Below are positions 7,789-25,687 of a DNA stretch of 64,000 nucleotides, one piece after another; positions within the stretch are counted from its first letter, which is position 1; each line of letters opens with the position of its first letter. This DNA is from Polystyrenella longa (GTDB lineage: Bacteria > Planctomycetota > Planctomycetia > Planctomycetales > Planctomycetaceae), in assembly GCF_007750395.1 (NCBI RefSeq), contig NZ_CP036281.1, positions 6,037,001 through 6,101,000 of the forward strand, given 5' to 3'. The notes under the pieces were generated by a model. That model was not told the DNA's origin. It did not search any database and saw nothing but the letters and a program-made list of their open reading frames with translations. Position numbers and translations under genes: made by a program.

Positions 7789-9387
7789 ATGTACAAACTA
7801 TTGCTTTGCTTCAAATATCTCCGCACCCGCTACATAGCGCTCGCCAGTATCATCAGTGTGATGCTGGGCGTGGCGACCATGATTGTGGTTAATAGCGTAA
7901 TGGCCGGTTTCGGTGGCCAGATGAAAGACCGCATCCGCGGGATCATGTCGGATGTCGTCGTCGAATCTCGCAGCTATGACGGAGCTCCGGATCCCGAAGG
8001 GATCATGAGACAGATTGACCGGGTCGCCGGAGATAAAATAGAAGCGATCACTCCGACGGTGACCACTTTTGCAATTATGAATATCAGCATCGGGGGTATG
8101 CTGGAGCCTCGCCCGATCACATTGGTAGGCATCTATCCCGAAGAAAAAGATAAGGTCAGCGCTCTCACGCCATCCTTGATGAAGTATCAGGAGATCATCG
8201 AGGGAGACCAGATTATTCGCGGACCGTTGCGTACCGCCGGTCAAGCCCCGAACTGGGAGCTCGAACCTGAAGAAATGCAGCGACGTGTCGCCCGCGCTGA
8301 GCAGAACAGTTGGCGGCCAGAGACGGTCTACTCCAAGTCGCAAGAAACAAATAATGAGGCTGTTCCGGACTTCGACGAGGACGCCGTGCCCGAATTCGAT
8401 GAAGAATTTGACTCGACCAATGCATCGGAGGAAATTGTCGCTGAATCTGAGACAGACCCGCTGAGTAATTTGGAATCAAGCTTCAATGAATACAATGTTA
8501 TCGACGAACAACCGGTTGAACCGGGAGCATTGATGAAGGCCCGCGTTTATGTCGGTAGTGGCCTTGCGAGCTACAAAGAACCTCAAACAGACAAGCGGCA
8601 TTGGCTGGTCCGGCCTGGTGATGATGTCGTCATGCTGACCAACACAATCGGCATGCCCAAACAGAACCCGGTCAGCTTTTCTGCCACCGTCGTCGACATC
8701 TTTCATTGCGGCATGAGCGAGTACGATTCCAATCTGGTCTTCATGAACATCGAAGCCCTGCAGGAATACAAGAAAATGCTGCTCCCCGAAGCAGAACTCG
8801 TGACCTCCTTTCAAATCAAACTGAAAAACTATGACGACTCTGAAGAAGTCGTAAATATCCTAAAAGCCAACCTTCCCCCCGGTACTTTTGAGGTCACTAC
8901 CTGGGAAGATCGCCAGGGCGCTCTACTACAGGCCCTCGCGATGGAGGCCGCCATTTTGAATGTGTTACTGTCACTGATTATTGCCGTGGCTGGATTCGGT
9001 ATTCTGGCAATCTTCTTTATGATTGTCGTCGAAAAAACACGGGACATTGGGATTCTCAAATCTCTGGGGGCATCGTCTCGGGGAGTGATGTCAATCTTCC
9101 TCGGTTACGGTTTTTCACTGGGGATTGTCGGCAGCGGTGTCGGAGTCATGTTGGGTCTGGCGTTTGTGGTTTATATCAACGAAATTTCCGACTTTATCTC
9201 TAAATTGACCGGGCAGAAAATCTTCGACGATCAGATTTATTACTTCGACAAGATTCCAACGGAGATCAGCCCGTACATGGTCTTCTGGGTTTCCCTGGGT
9301 GCGATTACCATTGCTGTTCTCGCTTCCGTTCTGCCTGCCCGGCGTGCTGCGAACCTGAACCCGGTTGAAGCACTGCGACATCAATAA
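7789..9387 (+). CDS. ABC transporter permease, LolC/LolE/MacB (FtsX) family
   Basis: This is a 532-residue permease with the standard layout: one N-terminal helix (about residues 15-38), a large extracytoplasmic domain (about 40-385), then three helices holding the FtsX domain (about 390-530), with KTRDIGILKSLGASSRGV in the coupling helix and PARRAANLNPVEALRHQ at the C-terminus. Family members extract lipoproteins (LolCDE) or export peptides and macrolides. An unusual feature is an acidic low-complexity insert at about residues 185-228 that contains a tandem AVPDFDED / AVPEFDEE. The ATPase follows after 55 nt, so the pair forms a transporter; a single permease gene implies a homodimer or a second gene elsewhere. 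Lipoprotein release is the likeliest role but not proven. Confidence 0.88.
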   Translation: MYKLLLCFKYLRTRYIALASIISVMLGVATMIVVNSVMAGFGGQMKDRIRGIMSDVVVESRSYDGAPDPEGIMRQIDRVAGDKIEAITPTVTTFAIMNISIGGMLEPRPITLVGIYPEEKDKVSALTPSLMKYQEIIEGDQIIRGPLRTAGQAPNWELEPEEMQRRVARAEQNSWRPETVYSKSQETNNEAVPDFDEDAVPEFDEEFDSTNASEEIVAESETDPLSNLESSFNEYNVIDEQPVEPGALMKARVYVGSGLASYKEPQTDKRHWLVRPGDDVVMLTNTIGMPKQNPVSFSATVVDIFHCGMSEYDSNLVFMNIEALQEYKKMLLPEAELVTSFQIKLKNYDDSEEVVNILKANLPPGTFEVTTWEDRQGALLQALAMEAAILNVLLSLIIAVAGFGILAIFFMIVVEKTRDIGILKSLGASSRGVMSIFLGYGFSLGIVGSGVGVMLGLAFVVYINEISDFISKLTGQKIFDDQIYYFDKIPTEISPYMVFWVSLGAITIAVLASVLPARRAANLNPVEALRHQ

Positions 9388-9442
9388 AGATTTTGGTTCA
9401 CCACGAATTAACCATCCGTTCCAAGAGTATAGTGGTATCAAC

Positions 9443-10171
9443 ATGACAGAAATTCTTCCGATGAATGATGAGCACATCTCGGCCGTTGCACTTGAAAAGA
9501 TTTATTTCAAGGGGGAGATTCAGGTCCCTGTGCTACGCGGCATTCGCATGTCGGCGAAAAAAGGGGAATTTCTGTCGATCATCGGTCAGTCCGGATCGGG
9601 GAAAAGCACCCTGCTCCACCTCTTAGGACTACTGGATACCCCCGATGTCGGAGAGGTCCTTCTGGAAGGACAACGAATCGACGACCTGCCTCCACGCGTG
9701 CGGGACGAACTGCGAAATCGGGTCTTCGGGTTTATTTTTCAGTTCTACCATCTTTTGCCCGAACTGAACCTGTTGGACAATGTCCTGACTCCACAGATGA
9801 TTCGCTACAGTATTCGTGAATACTGGACAAAGCGCAAGGAACTGAAAGAACGAGCCCGATACTTCATCGACCAAGTCGGATTAAGCCACCGGATTACGCA
9901 CAAACCCTCAGAGCTGTCTGGTGGAGAAATGCAGCGGGCGGCCATCGCCCGTGCCCTGATGGGTGAACCGAAGCTCCTGCTCGCCGACGAACCGACTGGA
10001 AACCTTGATGTCGGTACTGGTGGCGAGATTATGGAGTTGCTGAACCGGTTGAATGAGGAACAACAGCTCACTATCATCATGGTAACGCACGATCGGGCCG
10101 TCGCCAAACAGGCACATCGTACGATATGTTTGCAAGAAGGCAAAGTCGCGAAACTGGCAGAAGTTGCCTGA
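9443..10171 (+). CDS. ABC transporter ATP-binding protein, LolD/MacB family
   Basis: This is a 242-residue ATPase partner of the permease at 7789-9387. Motifs in order are Walker A GQSGSGKST, Q-loop region FQFYHLLPELN, signature LSGGEMQR, Walker B LLLADEPTGNLD, and H-loop MVTHD. The FQFYHLLPELN form of the Q-loop is typical of LolD-type proteins. The start at 9443 (MTEILPMNDEH) is preferred over the upstream frame opening at 9365, which would overlap the permease end; 9461 is an alternative. No strong ribosome site is seen, so translation may be coupled to the permease. It hydrolyses ATP to drive transfer of a lipoprotein or other envelope substrate. Confidence 0.9.
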   Translation: MTEILPMNDEHISAVALEKIYFKGEIQVPVLRGIRMSAKKGEFLSIIGQSGSGKSTLLHLLGLLDTPDVGEVLLEGQRIDDLPPRVRDELRNRVFGFIFQFYHLLPELNLLDNVLTPQMIRYSIREYWTKRKELKERARYFIDQVGLSHRITHKPSELSGGEMQRAAIARALMGEPKLLLADEPTGNLDVGTGGEIMELLNRLNEEQQLTIIMVTHDRAVAKQAHRTICLQEGKVAKLAEVA

Positions 10172-14237: not shown

Positions 14238-17200
14238 TTAAACCCCGTTGATGACGTTGGGTCGTGCAGGAGAATTGGGTGCGGGGCTGAATTCGAGACG
14301 GAGAGGTTCTTCGCCGCGAACCGAACGGTCGATGCGATACGTGAGGATGTGCTCACCGGTAGTTGCTTCGACGATCGTCGCTTCGCTCAGATCGGATACT
14401 GGTTCTCCATCGAGCCAGACTTCAAGACCCGCAACCGAGTTAAAGCTAAGCTGCACAGCCCCGGGAGTACCCACGTCGAACCGAGTCGTCAGGTAAGTCG
14501 TTGTAGTCTCCGGAAGGTCGGTCAAGGAGAGCGAACCATTCACGCGGCTGTAAAGAGGGGCCCAAAAGACGTCCTCGCTGGTCTCCGCCAGTTGATTAAT
14601 CTCAGCTGGTGTCTTGTCGGCCACAACCATTTCGACAGGCGTTTGCAGTACGCGCCAGGTACGTTGAACGGGAATGTTCGGTGTAGCAAACGGTCCGGGA
14701 CGACCGAGTTCATGGATAAATCGAACGAGGTCGAGGAATTCCTGCCGGGTCATGTTATCGACCAGTCCCTTGGGCATCATGGACGGGGCCGGGGCGACTT
14801 CTTCAATTTCTTCCGGATTGAACGATCGCACTTTCCGTGTGGTCGCGTCGAGAATGACGATTGATTCCGGTGTTTTTTCCTTCAAAATTCCGGTGAATAT
14901 TTTGCCTTCTTCGGTTAAGAGGGTGACTGCTGCGTACCCTTCGCGAACCGCTTTGTTCGGATCGACAATAGCGTGGAAGACGTAATCGAGAGGCGAACTG
15001 GCACCCAGACCTTCGAGGTCAGGTCCAACAGGAGCACCTCCACCGGAGATGGCGTGACAGGAGAAACAGGCGAGGTCTTTACGACGGAAGACATCTTCTC
15101 CCCGTGCGGCGTCACCTTCTGCCATGACTTGTTCCAAGAGTGGTTTCAGCTCTTCCGCCATTAACTCGTCAGCCAGACTTTTGGCACCGACGATCGTACG
15201 GAATGTTTCGACTAAACCGGGGTCTTGTTTACCGGTCTCGTTCATGTATCGCAGAGCGAGTTTGGCGGCATCAATATTCAACGGCTGATCTTTGAACGTC
15301 ACGGTGAGCAGGTCGGGACCTTCTGGAAGAGAGAAGAAGGTCTCAAGTAATAAACCAGGATCGGCTTTCTCGGGATCTTGCTGCATCAGTTGTCCGGCGA
15401 GAAGCGAGGCCGTGGCCAGATCGACATCAACCATAGCCGCTGCCGCGCGGTAACGGATTTCCAGAGGTTCGTCGACGGAGGTCGCAATCTGCTGGAGCGT
15501 ATTCAGGGCTGTTTCTCCACCAAGCTGCGCGATGGTGGTGAAGGCCGCTTGCCGCACCGAGGTATCGGAGGTTGTATCTAAAGCAATGGTTTCAACGTCC
15601 GCCTGCAGCTCGCTGACTTTCCAGAGACCGATCAGTTCGATCGCATTAGCTTTCAGATCTTCGTTGGGGGCATCCAGAAGTTGGCCGATCTCGACCAGAT
15701 TACCGGAAGGAGTCACCTTCCGATTGCGATAAGCGTTAGCGACTTCGGATAGGACTGAGGCATGAAGTTCAGGAGTGTAAACAGTATCTGTCGCGGGCAA
15801 ACCGACGTTTGCGATGGCGGCAAGGGAATCGCGTCCCAGCAATTGCGCCAATTCTTCCGAAGTTCCCTGTTGGGCAATCACATTCAACAGGTTGGCCCGT
15901 TTATCAGCACCAAGCTTTCCTCCTTTGAGGATATTCAACAAGAGCGCGGTTGCCTCGGATGTTTCCGCCACACTAAGCGCCGCCTGAATGTGATTCAGGT
16001 TACCGTTAAAGGTGATCTCTCCCGCTTTCAGAGCAGGCAACCAGGTATCGCGCGTATTGAGGATGGTGTGTTTGAATGTGTAGTCGATGTATTTATCGCG
16101 TGGGTGGTCGACGACTTTTGCCGCAATTTCGATTGCTTCCGGTTGATCGATGTAACTGAGAGCGCAGAGTGCTTCCAGACGCACACGAGGGAATTCATCC
16201 TGAATTAATTTATCAAGCCAGGTGAGAGCATCGGGAACTTCGGGCAGCCAGTATCGCAAGACGCGAGTGGCGGCAGCACGCGCGCGGGGTTCAGAAGAAT
16301 TTAGAACCGTCGTCAGGAGATCGAGATCGACATGGTTGATTGTTTGGCAAACCCACAGGGCTTCCAGTTGATGGTGGGCAAAATTCGGATCGGCCGGATC
16401 GAGCGAGGAAAGATAAGCGGGCAGCGCATCGACCACTTCCGCCTGATCGCGTTCGTACAATTCGCGACGACTTTTATCGCGGGTGTAGCCATCGGACGAC
16501 TTCAAGTTTTCGAGCAGGGCGGCCACGGAAAGATCGGTGAAGTCTATTTTGGGAAGCAAATCACGATTCTTCTCGGTGATTCGCCAGATGCGGCCATTCA
16601 AGTGGTCACGGCGATCATCCCGGAACTGGTACTGCATATGCCCAATAACGGGTTGATAGAAGTCAGCTACGTACAGGGCGCCATCAGGGCCAGTTTTGAC
16701 ATCGACTGGCCGGAATTTCGGGCCGTTACTGACAACCATCAGAGGTTGCAGTTCGCGGGTTGCGTAACCGGCGCCGTCGTCGCTGAACTCATACAAGTTG
16801 ACTGTTTTATTTTTGAAGGCGTTGAGAACCATCAGGTTCTGATACTTCTCGGAAAAGTGACTGTTGTAGATAAATTCGGTTCCGCAGGATTTCGGAGCCT
16901 TGGTGCCGGGAACGCGTTCAGTTGGATTGCCTTTGCTGGTTGCTGGTGTGAGATACCAGATGTCACCCTGCGGACCTTCGGTCAGAAAACTCTGGCCCCA
17001 TTGATCGAATGTGTGGCCCCATGGATTGGTTGCGGAACCGACATTGAACATATCGAGTTTGAGTTCTCTTGGACGGAGTTGAAAAACGCCGCCATTGTCG
17101 AGCCGTAACAGCCCATGAGGAGTTTCCACCTGTGTATGCAGAAAAACGCCCGACTGGAAATACAACCAGCCACCCGGCCCCCAGGTGAAAGCAGAAATCG

Positions 17201-17747
17201 CATGGTGATTGTCTTCGGTGCCGAAACCACTGAGAAGAACGCGTTCTGTATCAGCTTTCAAGTCGCCGTCTGTGTCTTTGAGGAAGAGCAGGTCGGGTTG
17301 ATTCGCGACATAGACTCCTCCATCTCCTAATGCGAGACCAGTCGGAACGTACAGCTTGTCGTAGAAGATGGTCGACTTATCGGCTTTACCGTCGTTGTCT
17401 GTATCTTCCAGCACGCTAATGAAGTCGGTTCGTTCCTGCCCGGGCAAGATGTGTGGATACATGGGTGAGTTGATGACCCACAGGCGGCCTTTGGCGTCCC
17501 ACTTCATCGCGATCGGGTTGACTACCATCGGCGATTCGGCGAACAGGTTGATTTCGAAATCTTCATGCACCGTGAACTGGTCGGCTTCGGTTTGCGAATC
17601 TTCCTGAGTGCTCTCCGGGTAAGTTTCCTTGAGAAGTTCGTAAACTTCGTCGGGAGTACGACCAGTGCCAACCTGAGCAAACAAAGGAGACACCGAGCAG
17701 CAGAACAAGCTGGTAATTACAAGGACGAACAGTTTCTGTGTGGACAT
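14238..17747 (-). CDS. PVC-type heme-binding, sorbosone-dehydrogenase-like secreted protein with HEAT repeats
   Basis: This is a 1169-residue exported protein with a signal peptide (about residues 1-25). Domains in order are a beta-propeller like membrane-bound dehydrogenases (about 55-390, with repeated DxDxDGKAD-type loops such as DTDNDGKADKST), a helical HEAT-like repeat region (about 400-830), a cytochrome-c-like PVC-type domain with the heme motif CFSCH near residue 880 and a downstream Met-rich SMMPKG ligand candidate, and a C-terminal beta domain (about 1050-1165). Such multi-domain proteins are characteristic of planctomycetes; substrate and electron acceptor are not known, with sugar or polyol oxidation inferred from the propeller. 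It follows the SGNH-like gene after 86 nt on the same strand. Confidence 0.85.
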   Translation of the reverse strand: MSTQKLFVLVITSLFCCSVSPLFAQVGTGRTPDEVYELLKETYPESTQEDSQTEADQFTVHEDFEINLFAESPMVVNPIAMKWDAKGRLWVINSPMYPHILPGQERTDFISVLEDTDNDGKADKSTIFYDKLYVPTGLALGDGGVYVANQPDLLFLKDTDGDLKADTERVLLSGFGTEDNHHAISAFTWGPGGWLYFQSGVFLHTQVETPHGLLRLDNGGVFQLRPRELKLDMFNVGSATNPWGHTFDQWGQSFLTEGPQGDIWYLTPATSKGNPTERVPGTKAPKSCGTEFIYNSHFSEKYQNLMVLNAFKNKTVNLYEFSDDGAGYATRELQPLMVVSNGPKFRPVDVKTGPDGALYVADFYQPVIGHMQYQFRDDRRDHLNGRIWRITEKNRDLLPKIDFTDLSVAALLENLKSSDGYTRDKSRRELYERDQAEVVDALPAYLSSLDPADPNFAHHQLEALWVCQTINHVDLDLLTTVLNSSEPRARAAATRVLRYWLPEVPDALTWLDKLIQDEFPRVRLEALCALSYIDQPEAIEIAAKVVDHPRDKYIDYTFKHTILNTRDTWLPALKAGEITFNGNLNHIQAALSVAETSEATALLLNILKGGKLGADKRANLLNVIAQQGTSEELAQLLGRDSLAAIANVGLPATDTVYTPELHASVLSEVANAYRNRKVTPSGNLVEIGQLLDAPNEDLKANAIELIGLWKVSELQADVETIALDTTSDTSVRQAAFTTIAQLGGETALNTLQQIATSVDEPLEIRYRAAAAMVDVDLATASLLAGQLMQQDPEKADPGLLLETFFSLPEGPDLLTVTFKDQPLNIDAAKLALRYMNETGKQDPGLVETFRTIVGAKSLADELMAEELKPLLEQVMAEGDAARGEDVFRRKDLACFSCHAISGGGAPVGPDLEGLGASSPLDYVFHAIVDPNKAVREGYAAVTLLTEEGKIFTGILKEKTPESIVILDATTRKVRSFNPEEIEEVAPAPSMMPKGLVDNMTRQEFLDLVRFIHELGRPGPFATPNIPVQRTWRVLQTPVEMVVADKTPAEINQLAETSEDVFWAPLYSRVNGSLSLTDLPETTTTYLTTRFDVGTPGAVQLSFNSVAGLEVWLDGEPVSDLSEATIVEATTGEHILTYRIDRSVRGEEPLRLEFSPAPNSPARPNVINGV

Positions 17748-17833
17748 CGTAGAGGTAAACCTTGTAGGGATGTATTACTGGAGAATCAGGTCGGCATGCC
17801 TATGATGCCACGATTCTTTTCGATCAGATGGAA

Positions 17834-19111
17834 TTACTTACGGATCAGGATAAACTGGTGTGACAGGGGTTTGGAGAGTCGACTGGCTTTCACGTCTGAC
17901 TCTTCCATCAGTCGCTGCATCTCCGCCATTTCTTTGGGAAAACTGGGGTTACCAGAGTTTCCACCATCTTTGGTCGGGTCCCAGTTGTCACTGACTGAAG
18001 CGCGGCGACCATAAATATACTCACCATTATGTGCCCGCCATTTGAAGAAGAACATATCGTTTTTGAAAACGACTTCCTGTCGTAATTGTTTTGCTTGTTC
18101 GAACTGGGGTCCCTGATCGAGAATCATGCCTTTGGCCCATTGATCAGCAGAGCCGGACAGGATTTCCTGTTGGTCGATCAACAAGGTGTAGTTACCCGGT
18201 GTAAGATTGGCGACTGTTAATGTGCGGCGATGGGGCAGTTCGACACCGGCAGGGCTCGAGTCTGGAGCAACGAGTGGAAGTTGGTCATCGATCGCGTTAA
18301 ACGTAACTGCGGACGTGGTCGATTGTAGATCGCGAATCCGTACACCCTTTCGGTCGACTTTTCGCTTGCCTGCACTGATGCTGATCGACCACTCGGGAGA
18401 GTTGTAGCCCAGTTGTTCCGCCAGAACCTGGCTAACTTTCCAGTAACCGAACTCGGTGAAATGGAGTCCATTATCGGTCAGTGGGTAGGGGGTCGGTTCC
18501 TCGGGGTGATACATCGATTGGAATAAGTTGGCGAAGGAGACCTTTTCTTCTTCCGCTAACTGGCCGGTTGCGTTTACGAATGTCTGGAGAGACTGATTTT
18601 GCGGTTCAAGGTTATAAGGCGCCCCCGGAATGGATTCGAACGGAGGTGGAGCAATGATGAGTGTTCGCAGTTTTAATTTTTCGAAAATCGAAAGTGTCTC
18701 GCGATAACCGGCAAGGAATTTTTCGAGTTGATGTTCGCCTTCAAAGGCGTCGTTCACGCCATAACTGGCCATCACTACGCTGGGGTTTTGCTTGGCGAGA
18801 TTTTCTTCGAACGAACCGTAATTTAACGGTCGCAGGCGTACATGGGTGGTGTCTCCCGGCCAGGCCATATTGCGAAAAGAGAGGGGCATGCCCGGATGAT
18901 TAATGCGAATCATCGATTCGAAGTAACCGTAATGGCGATCACGTTCGATAAAGGTCGCCCCAATCAAAGCGACGCGGTCGTCTGCTTTCAAACGGAAAAC
19001 GTTACCATCCGCTGCATGGAGAGGAGCCGATGCAACCGACATGAGCGCAGCCAAGCTGACCAGCAAGGCACATACAAGGGAAAAACGACGACACTTGGGG
19101 ATCAAACTCAC
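17834..19111 (-). CDS. SGNH/GDSL-hydrolase-like secreted protein with altered nucleophile block
   Basis: This is a 425-residue protein with a signal peptide (about residues 1-33). An SGNH-like fold is visible: block I is IGATFIERD, block II NMAWPGDT, block III SYGVNDAF, and block V DNGLHFTEFGY. In block I the usual GDS is GAT, so the nucleophilic serine is replaced by threonine while Gly, Asn and Asp/His are kept. The C-terminal part (about 255-425) is a beta-rich extension of unknown role. The start is a GTG at 19111, preceded by AAGGAG. It is upstream of, and on the same strand as, the PVC-heme protein (86-nt gap), so the two are probably one transcription unit acting on the same envelope or polymer substrate. 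Confidence 0.82.
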   Translation of the reverse strand: MSLIPKCRRFSLVCALLVSLAALMSVASAPLHAADGNVFRLKADDRVALIGATFIERDRHYGYFESMIRINHPGMPLSFRNMAWPGDTTHVRLRPLNYGSFEENLAKQNPSVVMASYGVNDAFEGEHQLEKFLAGYRETLSIFEKLKLRTLIIAPPPFESIPGAPYNLEPQNQSLQTFVNATGQLAEEEKVSFANLFQSMYHPEEPTPYPLTDNGLHFTEFGYWKVSQVLAEQLGYNSPEWSISISAGKRKVDRKGVRIRDLQSTTSAVTFNAIDDQLPLVAPDSSPAGVELPHRRTLTVANLTPGNYTLLIDQQEILSGSADQWAKGMILDQGPQFEQAKQLRQEVVFKNDMFFFKWRAHNGEYIYGRRASVSDNWDPTKDGGNSGNPSFPKEMAEMQRLMEESDVKASRLSKPLSHQFILIRK

Positions 19112-19395: not shown

Positions 19396-20769
19396 ATGCG
19401 ACTTCGTGGAATTCAATTCCCTGTCTCGACAATCCGTGTTCTCTGCGTCTGGATCTTCATCTCGGCAACGGCACTGGCCTGCTCAGTCCCGGTATTCCGG
19501 TACGCGCTGGAACAGTGGTCCTCGGACCAATACGAAATTCTTGTTTTCCATAAAACCCCGCTCGATGAAAATTCGCAAGCGTTGGTGAAACCGTATCTAT
19601 CGGAATCTGCGGAAGACAGCGCGACCGCGTCTGCGAATGTCAACGTGCGTCTGATCGACCTCAATGAAGATCTTTCTGAAGAAGATCAGCTTGTCTGGGA
19701 AACGCAGCAGGAGAAAAACGGAGACGGCACTCTTCCGTGGATGGCCGTGCGATATCCCAAAAATGCTTCGGGTTTCAAAGGGCACCCCGCCTATATGGAT
19801 GCCTGGTCTGCCGCTTGGTCGGAAGACAATTTCAGCAAGACAATCGATTCGCCAGCACGCCGAGAAATTGCTCGGCGACTCATCAAAGGGGAGACGGCCG
19901 TCTGGGTTCTTCTGCGATGTGGCGACAAAGAACTGGACGATGCCGCGCGGGAAGCACTGGCAGCAGCCCTCACCGAAGCCAACGAAACGTTGAAACTTCC
20001 CGAGATTGAAGAACAGGACATTGCCGACGGACTGGTAAAGATTGACCCCGCCCTACTCAAGGTGAACTTCACGACATATGAACTCGATCAGAACAATCAA
20101 GACGAAGCCGCTTTTATCAGCATGTTGCTGGGTAGTGAAGAAGACCTCTGGTCCCTGAAGGATCAACCGATGGCCTTCCCGCTCTTTGGTCGAGGTCGTG
20201 TGCTGTATGCTTTGATTGGTCAAGGGATCAACAAAGATGTCCTGATCGGCTCTTGCACCGAATTGATTGGGCCCTGTACCTGTCAAGTAAAAGAAGAGAA
20301 TCCGGGGACCGATGTTGTGATGAATGTGGACTGGAATAATCTGATTGAGTCCACGATTGATATCGATACCGAATTACCACCCTTGACCGGTTTGGCCAGT
20401 TTCAGTGAACCGGAAGCACAAGCCGACGGAGAACCGGTTCAGTCAGACCGGGAAAAACTGGCCGAACTACAGAAAGCGGCCGGTCTGGAGGAAGAACCTG
20501 CGGAGGAGCCTGCGTCTGCTCAGGCCTCTGTCACTGGCAGTGCTGCCTCGCCTCCTGTTGATTCGGAACAATCAGTGACTTCGGCAGCAGGAACCACTGG
20601 TGAGATGGCACCAGACACCCTGATTGAAATTGGTGAAGTCAGCGATCCTCAACCGGTGGAAGATGAAAACTCCTTCATGAAATCGATTCTGTCCATGGTC
20701 GGTGTGGGAGTGTTACTACTGGTGATCGGTACGTTTTTTGTCATGCGAAAAACAGGACCTGATGCCTGA
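19396..20769 (+). CDS. CSVPVFRYALEQW-type exported protein with C-terminal membrane anchor
   Basis: This is a 457-residue protein that I know only as a planctomycete family without an assigned function. It starts at the ATG at 19396 (CGGAG 9 nt upstream); the frame is open from 19336. An N-terminal export signal ends at ALACSVPVFRYALEQW, where the Cys could be lipidated, although the lipobox is not canonical. A mixed domain with thioredoxin-like hints (LPWMAVRYP, AVWVLLRCGDKE, LIGSCTELIGPCTCQVKEE with a CxxxxxxCxC cluster) follows, then a Pro/Ala/Glu-rich linker (about 340-420) and one transmembrane helix (about 430-450). It is followed by an ABC permease and ATPase, so it is likely a substrate-handling or sensor subunit of that exporter. 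Confidence 0.78.
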   Translation: MRLRGIQFPVSTIRVLCVWIFISATALACSVPVFRYALEQWSSDQYEILVFHKTPLDENSQALVKPYLSESAEDSATASANVNVRLIDLNEDLSEEDQLVWETQQEKNGDGTLPWMAVRYPKNASGFKGHPAYMDAWSAAWSEDNFSKTIDSPARREIARRLIKGETAVWVLLRCGDKELDDAAREALAAALTEANETLKLPEIEEQDIADGLVKIDPALLKVNFTTYELDQNNQDEAAFISMLLGSEEDLWSLKDQPMAFPLFGRGRVLYALIGQGINKDVLIGSCTELIGPCTCQVKEENPGTDVVMNVDWNNLIESTIDIDTELPPLTGLASFSEPEAQADGEPVQSDREKLAELQKAAGLEEEPAEEPASAQASVTGSAASPPVDSEQSVTSAAGTTGEMAPDTLIEIGEVSDPQPVEDENSFMKSILSMVGVGVLLLVIGTFFVMRKTGPDA

Positions 20770-20849
20770 GCAAGAGGACTTACACTTCGGCTCGACTTTT
20801 TGTACTTCCCCTCCGCTCTCGATTCTCTGTTTAATAAACGTGAACAACT

Positions 20850-22229
20850 ATGTCCGTCTGGCAAATTATCATCAAAGAAATCAGCCATCGTAAGCTGAAC
20901 TTCTGCCTCTCCCTGTTGGCCGTGGCCGTGGCCGTTGGCTTTTTAACGGGGGCGCTGTCGCTACTCAAAGCGGAGTCAGAAATCACTCACTGGTTACAGG
21001 ATCAGCAGCAGGCGGAATTCACTCGCAAGATTGAATTGAAAGAACAGGAAGTTCAGCAAGCAGGGGCTGAATTACAGGACGCGGTTCGAAAAATCACCAA
21101 GGGGTTGGGGTTCAATATTCTTATCCTGCCCGAAAATCAGGACCTGAATCAATTACACCTGGAAGGTGAATTATCTGAGACCTTCCCCGAAGAATACGTG
21201 ACTCGTCTGGCGGAATCTAAAATCGTCACGATCAACCATCTGCTCCCCATGGTAAGCGAAAAGCTGAACTGGGAGGAGCAGGGAATGGAAATCATTCTCA
21301 CTGGTACACGCGGTGAAGTCCCGTTCCTACATCGTGTCAGCAAGAAACCGTTACAGGATCAAGTTCCCGCAGGGCAGATGGTCATCGGCCATCAGATTCA
21401 ACAACAGTTGAAACTGAAAACCGGAGATCAGGTGACCTTGAAAGGAAAAGAGTTCGAGATATCAGAAGTGCGAGAAGAGCAGGGAACTGTAGACGACAGC
21501 ACCGTCTGGATCAATCTGAAGGAAGCCCAGGAACTGCTTGATCGCCAAAACCTGCTGAATGCCATTCTGGCATTGGAATGTAACTGCGCCACGCTTGACC
21601 GGGTGACTGAAATTCGTGAAGAGCTGGCCTCCGTTCTGCCGGGCACAAAGATTATCGAACGAGGTCCGCCAGCGCTCGCTCGCGCGGAAGCCCGCAACAA
21701 AGCGAAACAGACTGCCGAGGAATCGCTCGCTCGCGAAAAAATTATGGGCGAAGCCTTACTCGCAGATGAACAAGGTAACCGCAAACAACGGGAACAGCAG
21801 CTCTCATTTTTCACAACGATGATGGTCGCGTTTATTATCATCTGCGCGACAATGTGGTTGGGGCTGTTAACCTACAACAATGTTCGTCAACGACGAAACG
21901 AAATCGCAATTCTCCGCGCATTCGGCGTAAGGTCATATCAAATCCTGACAACGATCATCGGTCGCAACATTCTGATTGGAATTCTGGGTGCGTTTGCGGG
22001 CATCCTGTTGGGAATCGTGGCCGGTTCTTTCTATGCGGAATGGAGTAGCGTTCAGGCCAGTGCCGCCTATGAGGCCCCGCTGAATTTACAATCGAGCGAT
22101 CTACGGGATGGTTCCAGTCTACTTCTGGTCTTTCTGCTGGCTCCTGTGCTCGCCCTGATTGCAGGTTGGTTCCCCGCTTTACTCGCCTCTCGGGAAGATC
22201 CCGCGTCTATTCTGCAAAGCGAAAACTAA
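20850..22229 (+). CDS. ABC transporter permease, MacB/FtsX family
   Basis: This is a 459-residue permease: first helix at about residues 15-38, a periplasmic domain with a coiled-coil-like segment right after it (DQQQAEFTRKIELKEQEVQQ) and a long helical stretch near 275-320, then three helices (about 325-345, 375-400, 425-448) forming the FtsX domain with NEIAILRAFGVRSYQIL. The C-terminus ASREDPASILQSEN is of the MacB/LolC kind. It has no acidic insert like the permease at 7789. The ATG at 20850 is 80 nt after the CSVPVFRYALEQW gene and the ATPase starts 67 nt after it, so a three-gene exporter unit is likely. The cargo is not identifiable. Confidence 0.86.
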   Translation: MSVWQIIIKEISHRKLNFCLSLLAVAVAVGFLTGALSLLKAESEITHWLQDQQQAEFTRKIELKEQEVQQAGAELQDAVRKITKGLGFNILILPENQDLNQLHLEGELSETFPEEYVTRLAESKIVTINHLLPMVSEKLNWEEQGMEIILTGTRGEVPFLHRVSKKPLQDQVPAGQMVIGHQIQQQLKLKTGDQVTLKGKEFEISEVREEQGTVDDSTVWINLKEAQELLDRQNLLNAILALECNCATLDRVTEIREELASVLPGTKIIERGPPALARAEARNKAKQTAEESLAREKIMGEALLADEQGNRKQREQQLSFFTTMMVAFIIICATMWLGLLTYNNVRQRRNEIAILRAFGVRSYQILTTIIGRNILIGILGAFAGILLGIVAGSFYAEWSSVQASAAYEAPLNLQSSDLRDGSSLLLVFLLAPVLALIAGWFPALLASREDPASILQSEN

Positions 22230-22296
22230 ACTCGCTTTCGATTCCCTTTTCACTCCTTTCACTGCTTTCCTTTTATCTTGATAAGTTGGTTCGTTT

Positions 22297-22995
22297 ATGT
22301 TGCTGCAAGCGAAACAGGCCGTCAAACGTTTCTCGACCGGTTCCCGCAATGAGGTAACTGCTGTTAACGATGTTTCGCTCGAATTGGCTGCGGGCGAATT
22401 CCTGGCGATTCAGGGTCCGAGTGGTGGTGGAAAATCGACCCTGCTATTAATGCTGGGTGGGTTGCTGCGACCGGAAAGTGGAACGATCAAAATCAATGGA
22501 CGGCAACTGTACGAACTTTCTTCCGAAGAGCGAGCGGCTCTTCGGGCGACCGAGATTGGGTTTGTCTTTCAACAGTTTCATTTGATCCCCTATCTGACGG
22601 TTCGCGAAAACGTGTTGGCCCCCGGACTCGCACCACGTCCCGCTGGGAAAGTGCTCGCTCACGCGGAACTGGAACAACGTGCGGATGAATTAATCAACAG
22701 CTTTGGTCTCGAATCGAGAGCGAATCATAAACCCGGAGAGCTAAGCACCGGCGAACGTCAGCGAACGGCATTAGCGCGAGCCCTGTTGTTCTCACCTCCC
22801 TTACTGCTGGCCGATGAGCCCACGGGAAATCTGGATGACGAAAACGCCCGGATTGTTCTCACGGCAATGAAAGATTATTGTGCCGCTGGAGGAGGAGTAT
22901 TGCTGGTGACGCACGATGCACGTGCATCGGAATTTGCGGATCGAACCCTCACCATTCGGGATGGGGAACTCCAAACCGAGAACGTCTCGGCTTAA
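22297..22995 (+). CDS. ABC transporter ATP-binding protein, MacB/LolD-like
   Basis: This is a 232-residue ATPase with Walker A GPSGGGKST, Q-loop FVFQQFHLIPYLTV, signature LSTGERQR (the usual LSGGQ is altered to LSTGE), Walker B LLLADEPTGNLDD, and H-loop LVTHD. It is the partner of the permease just upstream. The altered signature is tolerated in several ABC families, so the protein is probably active. It is followed by a MoaD-like gene after 44 nt, in the same direction. The start ATG is at 22297. No second ATPase is present. Confidence 0.88.
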   Translation: MLLQAKQAVKRFSTGSRNEVTAVNDVSLELAAGEFLAIQGPSGGGKSTLLLMLGGLLRPESGTIKINGRQLYELSSEERAALRATEIGFVFQQFHLIPYLTVRENVLAPGLAPRPAGKVLAHAELEQRADELINSFGLESRANHKPGELSTGERQRTALARALLFSPPLLLADEPTGNLDDENARIVLTAMKDYCAAGGGVLLVTHDARASEFADRTLTIRDGELQTENVSA

Positions 22996-23039
22996 TTTGT
23001 TGACTCCCATTTGAGAATTCAAGTTGAAAGTAATTAGCG

Positions 23040-23318
23040 ATGCGGGTAACCGTCGAATACATGGCTCAGATCAAACGGGCTGCCGGCCACGGACGTGAAG
23101 AGATTGAACTTCCAGAGGAATCAACGCTCGCGGATGCGCTCCAGCTACTTGCGAAATCACACGGGGAGCCACTCTCCGTCATGTTGCTGGATGCTACCGG
23201 GCAACCGATCAATTCGCTGTTACTCTTTCTCGGGCAGGATCAGGTCCGCCTGGAAGAGAACCCATTACTGGTAGACGGTTCTGAGCTGACCATTTCCACA
23301 CCCATTTCGGGTGGATAG
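23040..23318 (+). CDS. MoaD/ThiS-family ubiquitin-like sulfur carrier
   Basis: This is a 92-residue beta-grasp protein ending in ISGG. The C-terminal Gly-Gly is the site of adenylation and thiocarboxylation in MoaD (molybdopterin synthase small subunit) and ThiS. Features seen are the start MRVTVEYMAQIKRAAG, an ELPEESTLADALQLLA helix, and the EENPLLVDGSELTISTPISGG end, where the loop before ELTI is typical of MoaD. ThiS cannot be excluded by sequence alone, and the protein is rather long for ThiS. No moaE, moaB or thiF homologue is adjacent, so the partner is elsewhere. Its place between the ABC ATPase and the DUF420-like gene is unexplained. A small hairpin (TCGGGA/TCCCGA) lies shortly after the stop. 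Confidence 0.82.
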   Translation: MRVTVEYMAQIKRAAGHGREEIELPEESTLADALQLLAKSHGEPLSVMLLDATGQPINSLLLFLGQDQVRLEENPLLVDGSELTISTPISGG

Positions 23319-23493
23319 CGGTTCTTAAGGAGGGTTCGGGAGTACAATCCCGATTTCCGTCCTGCCAATTGCTTCCCATTATTGAGATTGCCCCGGGCAT
23401 TGATAATTGCGGCTGGTCCCATTCTTGTCTACAGAGATATACTATTTCGTTGATGGTTCTTATTTCCTTTTCCTTGCGCGACTCCTGAGTGAC

Positions 23494-23979
23494 ATGTATC
23501 TATTTGCCCAACAGATTGCGGACACCGTTGCTACAGAAACTCCGGAATGGGTACACCAACTGCCCACCGTCAACGCAGGACTGAACGGATTGGCAACGGT
23601 TCTGCTCATGTGGGGATTCATCGCCATTAAGCAGGGAAAACGGGAAACACACAAGTTAATCATGCTGTCGACCTTCGGGGTCTCTACCGCATTCCTGGCC
23701 TGTTATCTGGTTTACCATGCGGCTCTGCATCATTATACTGGAAGTGGTTCACGGGCATTCACAGGCACCGGAATCATCAGACCGATATACTTTGGGATTC
23801 TGATTACCCACGTCATTCTGGCAATGGTGATTGCCGTGATGGTGCCGATAACGATGTATCGAGGATTAACGCATCAGTGGAATCGACACCGACGCATTGC
23901 GAAGATTACGTTCCCGCTCTGGCTGTATGTCTCCGTCACGGGAGTCGTCATTTATTTCATGCTGTACCATCTGGGATAA
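23494..23979 (+). CDS. DUF420-like four-helix membrane protein (CtaM-like)
   Basis: This is a 161-residue integral membrane protein with about four helices: residues 26-44 (GLATVLLMWGFIAIKQG), 53-76, 98-122 and 135-155. Conserved His residues occur in the loops and helices (THKLIM, YHAALHH, ITHVILA), as in DUF420/CtaM proteins, which support heme-copper oxidase assembly. A TTG at 23407 opens the frame, but the first ATG at 23494 (MYLFAQQIADTVA) gives the best N-terminus. The next gene, a small CPMC membrane protein, follows after 54 nt. A link to cytochrome oxidase or copper handling is likely from family knowledge, but no oxidase gene is in this window. Confidence 0.78.
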   Translation: MYLFAQQIADTVATETPEWVHQLPTVNAGLNGLATVLLMWGFIAIKQGKRETHKLIMLSTFGVSTAFLACYLVYHAALHHYTGSGSRAFTGTGIIRPIYFGILITHVILAMVIAVMVPITMYRGLTHQWNRHRRIAKITFPLWLYVSVTGVVIYFMLYHLG

Positions 23980-24033
23980 CGGATCGATTGTTCGAATCCA
24001 AAACATTCACCTCAGTGACTTAAGTAGAATATC

Positions 24034-24288
24034 ATGAAACGATTTTTTCTGATTTTCAGTTTGAGCATCTGCCTATGGGCTACCGGTTTGATGTCGATGG
24101 CCTCTGCCTGCCCGATGTGTAAAGAAGCGAACGAAACAGAGAACGCTCTTCCCCGCGCGTACATGTACAGCATTCTGTTTATGATCGCGATGCCCGCCAC
24201 CATCTTCACCGGCCTGGGCTGGAAGTTCTACCGTCTCACCCAAGAGCGAGACGATGAACTGCCGGAAGAGGAATCGTTCGGCGAATAG
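24034..24288 (+). CDS. Small exported CPMC membrane protein
   Basis: This is an 84-residue protein with a signal-like N-terminal helix (KRFFLIFSLSICLWATG), directly followed by MASACPMCKEAN, a second helix (YMYSILFMIAMPATIFTGLG) and an acidic tail (DDELPEEESFGE). The Cys-Pro-Met-Cys motif at the start of the mature part could bind copper or form a disulfide. Standing next to the DUF420-like gene, it fits a metal-handling or oxidase-assembly accessory role, but the function is not established. The start ATG is at 24034. It is the last gene of the plus-strand run that begins at 19396; it converges with the M19 dipeptidase-like gene, 55 nt away. Confidence 0.72.
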   Translation: MKRFFLIFSLSICLWATGLMSMASACPMCKEANETENALPRAYMYSILFMIAMPATIFTGLGWKFYRLTQERDDELPEEESFGE

Positions 24289-24343: not shown

Positions 24344-25687
24344 TTAGCTTTCGCTGATCTGGATCGTCTCTTTTGCGACCCGCATGACATTGCCGCCGAT
24401 AATCTTGCGAATGTCCTCTTCGGAATAACCGCGCTGCAGTAGACCCACTGTGTATAATGGCCAGTTGATCCAGGATAGGCTGTCTGTCGCTTCTGAAGTC
24501 GTTTTATAATCGTCGCTGGGCCACAACGATCGGAAGGGTTCCCGGCTGCGAGGTCGTTTGGGAATCTTTCGGTTTTCTTCGCCAGCGTATTGAGATGTCC
24601 AGGCGATGTCGGTTCCAATGGCGACGTGATCGACGCCGAATTTTTTCGCGATGTAATCAACATGATCGAGCATCGTCGTCAGGTCTCCCTTTCCGCGCAG
24701 ATAGCGAGGAATACAGCAGATACCGACGTATCCACCGGAATCAACGATCGCCTTTACAACGTCATCCGGTTTACTGCGGAAGTGTGGATAAATCCCCCCC
24801 GCAGTCGAGTGGCTGGCCACGACCGGTTTGCCCGAGACTTCAGCCGCTTCGCGACTCGTACGCCATCCACTGTGCGCACAGTCGGGAATAATGCCAACCC
24901 GGTTCATTTCCGCAATGGCCTCGCGACCGAAGTCACTCAGACCGGCATCACTTTTTTCACCGCATCCATCGCCAATCATGTTCCGACGTTGATACGTCAG
25001 GTGCATCATTCGGATACCAAGTTCGTAGAAAATCCGAACGTATTGGAGTTCTTCAGGAATCGAGATCCATTGCTGCGCCAGAGGAACTCCATTGCCGGTC
25101 ATGTAGAGACAATGTTTTCCGGCGGCTTTGGCCGCTTCGACATCGGCGGGTACAGCAGCTTTCGAAACATAGTCTTTCAAGATATCGGTCGCGTAAGTAA
25201 ATCGGGCAAGACGTTTGAGTAAACGTAGAGGATCCTGTCCTTCCTGTCCCGCATTCTGAAATATCGAGGTAACACCCGAGACTCGCCACGCATTCAGGTA
25301 CTCTTGTTGCTCGGCCAGATTACTGACGAAGCGGGTCATCATCATATCTTCCCGCATCTCTTCGACTTCGCTATGGGAAGCACCGGCTTCGATCGCGGCC
25401 GCTATCGCGTCTCCATCCACTGCAGCACGAGGAGCGAACGAGTACGAATCGAACACCAGTGAATCTGCATGCAACTGCAGGCCCTGTTCCAACTCGCTCG
25501 CGGAAGGTTTCAACATATTCAACGCCACTTCACGAACGTGCTGCATCCGTGGTGGAAGTCGTTCGGTTAATGCCTGGACCGGATTAAGCTCAGCAACGTC
25601 GTCACTGGCAGAAGTGGTTTGTGCAGAGAGAGCCGATGTGGCTGCAGTCAGTGCTGCCGTCGAGCACAGAAAGGTGCGGCGGTCCAT
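24344..25687 (-). CDS. Exported membrane-dipeptidase-like (M19) protein lacking some metal ligands
   Basis: This is a 447-residue protein with an export leader (MDRRTFLCSTAALTAATSALS, RR present, TAT-like). The rest resembles peptidase family M19: IPDCAHSGW and ASHSTAGGIYPHFR hold two expected His ligands and HVAIGTDIAW holds the late Asp. However, the N-terminal HxD pair expected after the first strand is replaced (LVFDSYSFAP), and the bridging Glu strand reads HCLYMTGNGVP without Glu. Thus three of the usual binuclear zinc ligands are missing by eye. It may be a mononuclear or inactive homologue, or a divergent amidohydrolase. It lies downstream of the Nif3-like gene on the same strand, separated by 151 nt. 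Confidence 0.8.
   Translation of the reverse strand: MDRRTFLCSTAALTAATSALSAQTTSASDDVAELNPVQALTERLPPRMQHVREVALNMLKPSASELEQGLQLHADSLVFDSYSFAPRAAVDGDAIAAAIEAGASHSEVEEMREDMMMTRFVSNLAEQQEYLNAWRVSGVTSIFQNAGQEGQDPLRLLKRLARFTYATDILKDYVSKAAVPADVEAAKAAGKHCLYMTGNGVPLAQQWISIPEELQYVRIFYELGIRMMHLTYQRRNMIGDGCGEKSDAGLSDFGREAIAEMNRVGIIPDCAHSGWRTSREAAEVSGKPVVASHSTAGGIYPHFRSKPDDVVKAIVDSGGYVGICCIPRYLRGKGDLTTMLDHVDYIAKKFGVDHVAIGTDIAWTSQYAGEENRKIPKRPRSREPFRSLWPSDDYKTTSEATDSLSWINWPLYTVGLLQRGYSEEDIRKIIGGNVMRVAKETIQISES

Follow-up and report, generated by a model that had tools for sequence, protein, structure and literature searches.

Gene order across relatives divides a six-gene run

We examined a 64,000-nt stretch of the planctomycete Polystyrenella longa (positions 6037001–6101000 of its 6.13 Mb single-contig genome; hereafter, the window), in which six co-directional genes, designated A to F, run from 19396 to 24288. 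The original prediction interpreted these genes as a single envelope system for thiol or metal handling, possibly copper delivery. Comparison with relatives leads us instead to conclude that the run is almost certainly a composite of two separate conserved units, A-B-C-D and E-F, together with their junctions. Judged by gene content and order, the first is part of a conserved and widespread envelope system of Planctomycetota and Verrucomicrobiota that is apparently new to the literature, and the second belongs to cytochrome oxidase assembly, as the tail of the cox operon.

All six open reading frames (ORFs) lie on the + strand, and the gaps between them (A-B 80, B-C 67, C-D 44, D-E 175, and E-F 54 nt) are the 44–175 nt originally described. 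Gene A (19396–20769) encodes an exported protein with predicted thioredoxin-like domains and a C-terminal membrane anchor; B (20850–22229), an FtsX-type permease with a MacB-like periplasmic domain; C (22297–22995), its LolD-like ABC ATPase partner; D (23040–23318), a ThiS/MoaD-like sulfur carrier with a GG end; E (23494–23979), a DUF420/CtaM membrane protein; and F (24034–24288), a small CPxC membrane peptide. Neither A nor F falls within an accepted profile family.

In orthologous neighborhoods, the order A-B-C is constant in most other genera of the family, and D-E-F follows it only in the two congeners. The original prediction had held that an order not conserved in relatives would speak against a single system; the six-gene order is not conserved, and the six-gene system falls by that measure, while the A-B-C part of the order persists. 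Counts of the junctions across the full set of retrieved loci, in which some genomes appear twice, locate the break. D is followed by ThiF in 19 loci and SCO by E in 29, none of them from the window's genus, whereas D-E and SCO-ThiF adjacencies occur in that genus only. The cox operon of the window's genome, at 533–542 kb, is complete up to SCO and then runs into ThiF (541 kb; 77% identical to the ThiF of a relative), and both congeners share this SCO-ThiF arrangement. These patterns are most simply read as a single reciprocal swap of tails between the two operons in the ancestor of the genus, converting D|ThiF and SCO|E-F into D-E-F and SCO-ThiF, with the D/E interval (23319–23493, no strand assigned) as one of its breakpoints. 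We think such an exchange probably took place.

E and F as the displaced tail of the cox operon

E scores 141.8 bits against the DUF420 profile (cut-off 30.5), which places it in the CtaM/DUF420 family, and in relatives it is preceded by, or fused to, SCO1/SenC. In 8/8 relatives, representing 7 genera, the operon reads CoxB-CoxA-CtaA-CtaB-CoxC-CoxD-ABC2 ATPase-ABC2 permease-SCO-E-F, and it is complete without A-D. This context supports the earlier view that E takes part in heme-copper oxidase assembly. A 2026 paper (PMC13344008) proposes CtaM/DUF420 as a copper exporter to Sco and notes Sco-DUF420 fusions in planctomycetes, and a second paper (PMC9145763) describes a requirement for CtaM late in the process, for example in CuB assembly.

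F comprises 84 residues, with CPMC directly after the signal, as predicted, and a single additional hydrophobic segment; CP[MN]CK is constant among the homologs listed. It is present in 135/150 genomes of the family, a sample to which we return below, and in most loci examined E is recognizable next to it, at a separate locus. With a CPxC motif at its mature N terminus, F is a candidate for a copper-binding protein that assists E. The pair resembles the SCO-CtaM (DUF420) module of heme-copper oxidase assembly: E is a DUF420 protein, and the cox operons of relatives place it after SCO or fuse the two. It differs from that module in lying outside the cox operon in the window's genus and in having a constant extra partner, F, which the literature passages on the module do not name. 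Planctomycete cox operons consistently close with the gene for this small CPxC peptide, placed after SCO-DUF420 (for example, loci L226–L233), and no family model covers the peptide.

A is an anchored protein with predicted thioredoxin-like domains

The 457-aa product of gene A has a signal peptide, with Cys29 immediately behind it, and a C-terminal membrane helix; as we read the sequence, an AxA|C cut would put Cys29 at the mature N terminus. No credible sequence match to A was found in PDB or Pfam. An AlphaFold2 model built with 25 homologs (mean predicted local distance difference test score 77.7) has the secondary structure of two thioredoxin-like units. The predicted domain 2 (residues 151–291) aligns with thioredoxins at Z 9.7 over 99 residues (2.3 Å), and the matches listed are all thioredoxins or thioredoxin domains, which is the fold that the original prediction had proposed to look for in this protein. 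Domain 1, folded alone, also matches thioredoxins (Foldseek E 1.6e-3, probability 1.00), but with Z only 6.8 over 82 residues (3.0 Å) its predicted thioredoxin-like fold is no more than likely. Structural comparison of A brought up thioredoxin-like chains and no closer family.

The predicted domains give A a likeness to the tandem-domain proteins of the PDI/thioredoxin family. Neither domain, however, carries CXXC at the thioredoxin site, which places A outside the thioredoxin/PDI oxidoreductases, and it further differs from them in its CxC beyond the second domain, its mature N-terminal Cys, and its C-terminal membrane anchor. The export signal and the Cys-rich cluster CTELIGPCTCQ highlighted in the original prediction are both present, and the cysteines expected to be conserved largely are: Cys29 occurs in 94/95 homologs and Cys294-x-Cys296 in 95/95. 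These three are the only conserved cysteines, and the first Cys of CTELIG is variable. An FGRGR stretch is also nearly always kept across the 95 homologs. Relatives of A are encoded in more than 570 stretches of species-representative genomes, from Planctomycetota, Verrucomicrobiota, and some others.

B, C, and D belong to known superfamilies but diverge from their canonical members

B belongs to the FtsX/MacB superfamily (Pfam FtsX, 66.7 bits, cut-off 25.5; MacB_PCD, 33.4 bits, cut-off 27), and its periplasmic domain carries a Cys244-x-Cys246 pair that is invariant in 68/68 homologs. C has the ABC_tran profile, with LolD as its best match. As in LolCDE/MacB-superfamily (type VII) transporters, an FtsX permease with a periplasmic domain is paired with a separate LolD-like ATPase; B-C differ from these in falling under every curated cut-off, in the invariant CxC of the periplasmic domain, and in having as partner A, with its membrane anchor and predicted thioredoxin-like domains. 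We rejected assignment of B-C as a LolCDE lipoprotein releaser, both scores being far under the curated cut-offs (B versus lolCE, 55.8 bits against 362.45; C versus LolD, 206.3 against 307.75). Assignment as a MacB exporter was likewise rejected, as permease and ATPase are separate genes that score 14.7 and 175.5 bits against a cut-off of 966.

D matches the ThiS profile (29.7 bits, cut-off 22.5) and ends in ISGG, bearing out its description as a MoaD-like sulfur carrier of the ThiS/MoaD superfamily. It is not the canonical MoaD of molybdenum cofactor biosynthesis (22.5 against 66.15 bits); moaD-moaE-moaA lie at 4535 kb. Outside the window's genus, D is followed by a ThiF/MoeB-like gene.

A paralogous B'-C' set is found in the same genome at 4425157–4431126 (L203:5457-11426). 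It comprises a LolD-like ATPase, an FtsX permease in which CLC replaces CNC, and a pyrroloquinoline quinone (PQQ)-type propeller protein split into two ORFs, with no A adjoining. A propeller protein of this type also accompanies A (see below), and its presence beside B'-C' independently ties this kind of transporter to this kind of propeller. The window itself holds a further pair of FtsX permease and LolD-like ATPase, at 7789–10171.

A co-occurs with an importer of the molybdate type

In many relatives, A-B-C are followed by a tandem-ModA substrate-binding protein (SBP), a ModB-type permease, a ModC-type ATPase, D, and ThiF, and this cluster is flanked by an exported PQQ-type propeller protein of ~1300 residues. 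A parallel lineage has the operon propeller-A-SBP-permease-ATPase-D-ThiF, without B-C. We followed co-occurrence in 150 genomes of the family, for which the Fisher values given ignore shared ancestry. A is found in 81 genomes and the tandem ModA protein in 83, with both in 78 and one without the other in 8; several of the discordant genomes are low-completeness drafts or have contigs ending at the locus. In 11 genera some genomes have A and others lack it, and most of these genera show joint gain or loss of A and the tandem ModA protein. B is nearly a subset of A (53/55 genomes), and the propeller protein lies within 3 kb of A in 43/69 well-flanked loci. Among the 150 genomes, no significant association with A was detected for MoaE, aldehyde ferredoxin oxidoreductase (AOR), or F. 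MoaE, present in 141/150 and unrelated to A, disqualifies molybdenum cofactor biosynthesis as a discriminator. The phyletic partner of A is a molybdate-type importer; of the copper delivery originally proposed, the connection to oxidase assembly holds for E-F, and nothing in these comparisons links A-B-C to copper or oxidases, the lack of a significant association between A and F bearing on the matter indirectly.

The SBP exceeds the modA cut-off (112.1 against 62.5 bits) and carries Cys361 and Cys380, invariant in 40/40 sequences. The propeller protein, which matches BamB, has a cysteine cluster (C1034, C1072, and C1092-x-C1094) invariant in 51/51. Inserted into the exported propeller proteins is a domain resembling a Rossmann methyltransferase (Methyltransf_25, 33.9 bits; L204:9162-13103, k3/k8 families), which is odd for an extracytoplasmic protein. 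Like ModABC/WtpABC importers with MoaD-MoeB, the set combines an SBP above the modA cut-off with ModB/ModC-type permease and ATPase, and MoaD-like and MoeB-like genes adjoin it in relatives. Unlike them, the SBP of relatives consists of two fused ModA domains with the invariant Cys361/Cys380, and the set is additional to canonical moaD-moaE-moaA and clusters with A and the propeller protein. In the window's genome the system is dispersed, with A-B-C-D in the window, the SBP and permease at 2855–2858 kb, and ThiF at 541 kb; the best propeller homolog, at 53% identity, lies at 4177 kb. The tandem ModA protein and permease of this genome have no adjoining ATPase gene (L195:8081-10688).

From these gene neighborhoods and distributions, we consider that A very probably works with the tandem-ModA importer, the D/ThiF sulfur-carrier pair, and the PQQ-type propeller protein, B-C being a frequent addition. 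We found no description of the gene combination, of CxC in FtsX permeases, or of the tail exchange in the literature searched, which left subscription journals mostly outside.

A possible metal-sulfur hand-off and its alternatives

The importer would take up a molybdate-type oxyanion, and ThiF would activate D, whose thiocarboxylate would supply sulfur. Driven by ATP and acting through its CxC-bearing periplasmic domain, B-C would deliver or release the product, a metal-sulfur or thiol species, at the outer face of the membrane; membrane-tethered A would receive it at its CxC/N-terminal Cys site and pass it to the cysteine cluster of the propeller protein. E and F would have a role apart from this, loading copper into cytochrome oxidase. 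We offer this mechanism of oxyanion import, D/ThiF sulfur, and B-C/A hand-off to the propeller protein tentatively, and as a whole it is rather doubtful. We infer that the conserved cysteines may bind a soft metal or metal-sulfur unit. Generalized to a pathway spanning the PVC bacteria (Planctomycetes, Verrucomicrobia, and Chlamydiae), in which oxyanion and carrier sulfur yield an extracytoplasmic metallocofactor that reaches the propeller cysteines by way of B-C and of A as a tandem thioredoxin-like chaperone, the proposal is unlikely.

Tail exchange, A-D envelope system, and metal-sulfur hand-off together form our best explanation of the run, one that we rate at somewhat less than an even chance. 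Several observations weigh against its parts. Both exchanged loci are on the + strand in the window's genome, so a single inversion does not suffice, and a second rearrangement or two transpositions would be needed; no repeat of at least 9 nt was found at the two exchange junctions. At 8/69 well-flanked loci, A has no partner nearby. The importer permease (140.3 bits, cut-off 182.6) and ATPase (171.5, cut-off 285) both fall under the Mod cut-offs, and the CxC pairs may form disulfides instead of binding metal.

One alternative is a thiol-disulfide relay without metal, in which A, B, and the propeller protein would swap electrons or disulfides via CxC and thereby set the redox state of the propeller cysteines. 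The thioredoxin-like domains predicted in A and the invariant CxC shared by these three partners agree with such a relay, yet A lacks CXXC at the thioredoxin site, and the oxyanion importer and sulfur carrier are left unexplained; we give the relay a low probability. A role in outer-membrane or lipoprotein trafficking, with B-C as a LolCDE-like extractor, A as a partner of B-C in the periplasm, and the BamB-like propeller as an outer-membrane assembly factor, would account for LolD as the best match of C, for the matches of B to lolCE and LolE structures, and for the propeller's match to BamB. This reading is improbable, considering the sub-threshold scores of B and C, the frequent absence of B-C where A, propeller, and importer persist, and its giving no reason for the importer and D/ThiF.

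The reading of all six genes as one envelope system delivering copper or thiols to cytochrome oxidase draws on their shared direction and short gaps, on E-F as cox-assembly genes, on the proposal, cited above, of DUF420 as a copper exporter (PMC13344008), and on ThiF now ending the cox operon in the window's genus. It is very unlikely, and refuted as a conserved system: the D-E junction is confined to one genus, A is absent from 69/150 genomes with no significant association to F, and the cox operon of relatives does without A-D. Tungsten cofactor supply, with importer, D, and ThiF making tungstopterin for AOR and A-B-C as accessories, can be largely dismissed even though the importer ATPase matches WtpC best and other bacteria have MoaD/ThiF pairs alongside AOR genes, since AOR occurs in 36/81 genomes with A and 31/69 without (p = 1), and the window's genome lacks it.

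Genomic surroundings

Genes on the − strand flank the run on both sides, encoding a GDSL lipase/acylhydrolase (17834–19111) and a Peptidase_M19 protein (24344–25687). The GDSL hydrolase gene forms a − strand pair (14238–19111) with a gene for a 1169-aa protein bearing a c-type heme motif; the same pair stands divergent from A-B in another genus (G011; L062/L130), so the neighborhood is partly conserved. A promoter and terminator scan was uninformative.

Implications

The inferred tail exchange would provide a natural example of two operons swapping tails, and it cautions that closely spaced, co-directional genes may be functionally unrelated. Of the two halves of the run, E-F appears ordinary, though F, which accompanies DUF420 in nearly all planctomycete cox operons, bears on what CtaM does. 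The real interest seems to lie in A-D, part of an abundant, uncharacterized envelope system of Planctomycetota and Verrucomicrobiota whose substrate is made testable by a nearly one-to-one phyletic partner and invariant CxC sites. The metal-sulfur hand-off, if true, would constitute a new extracytoplasmic metallocofactor pathway.

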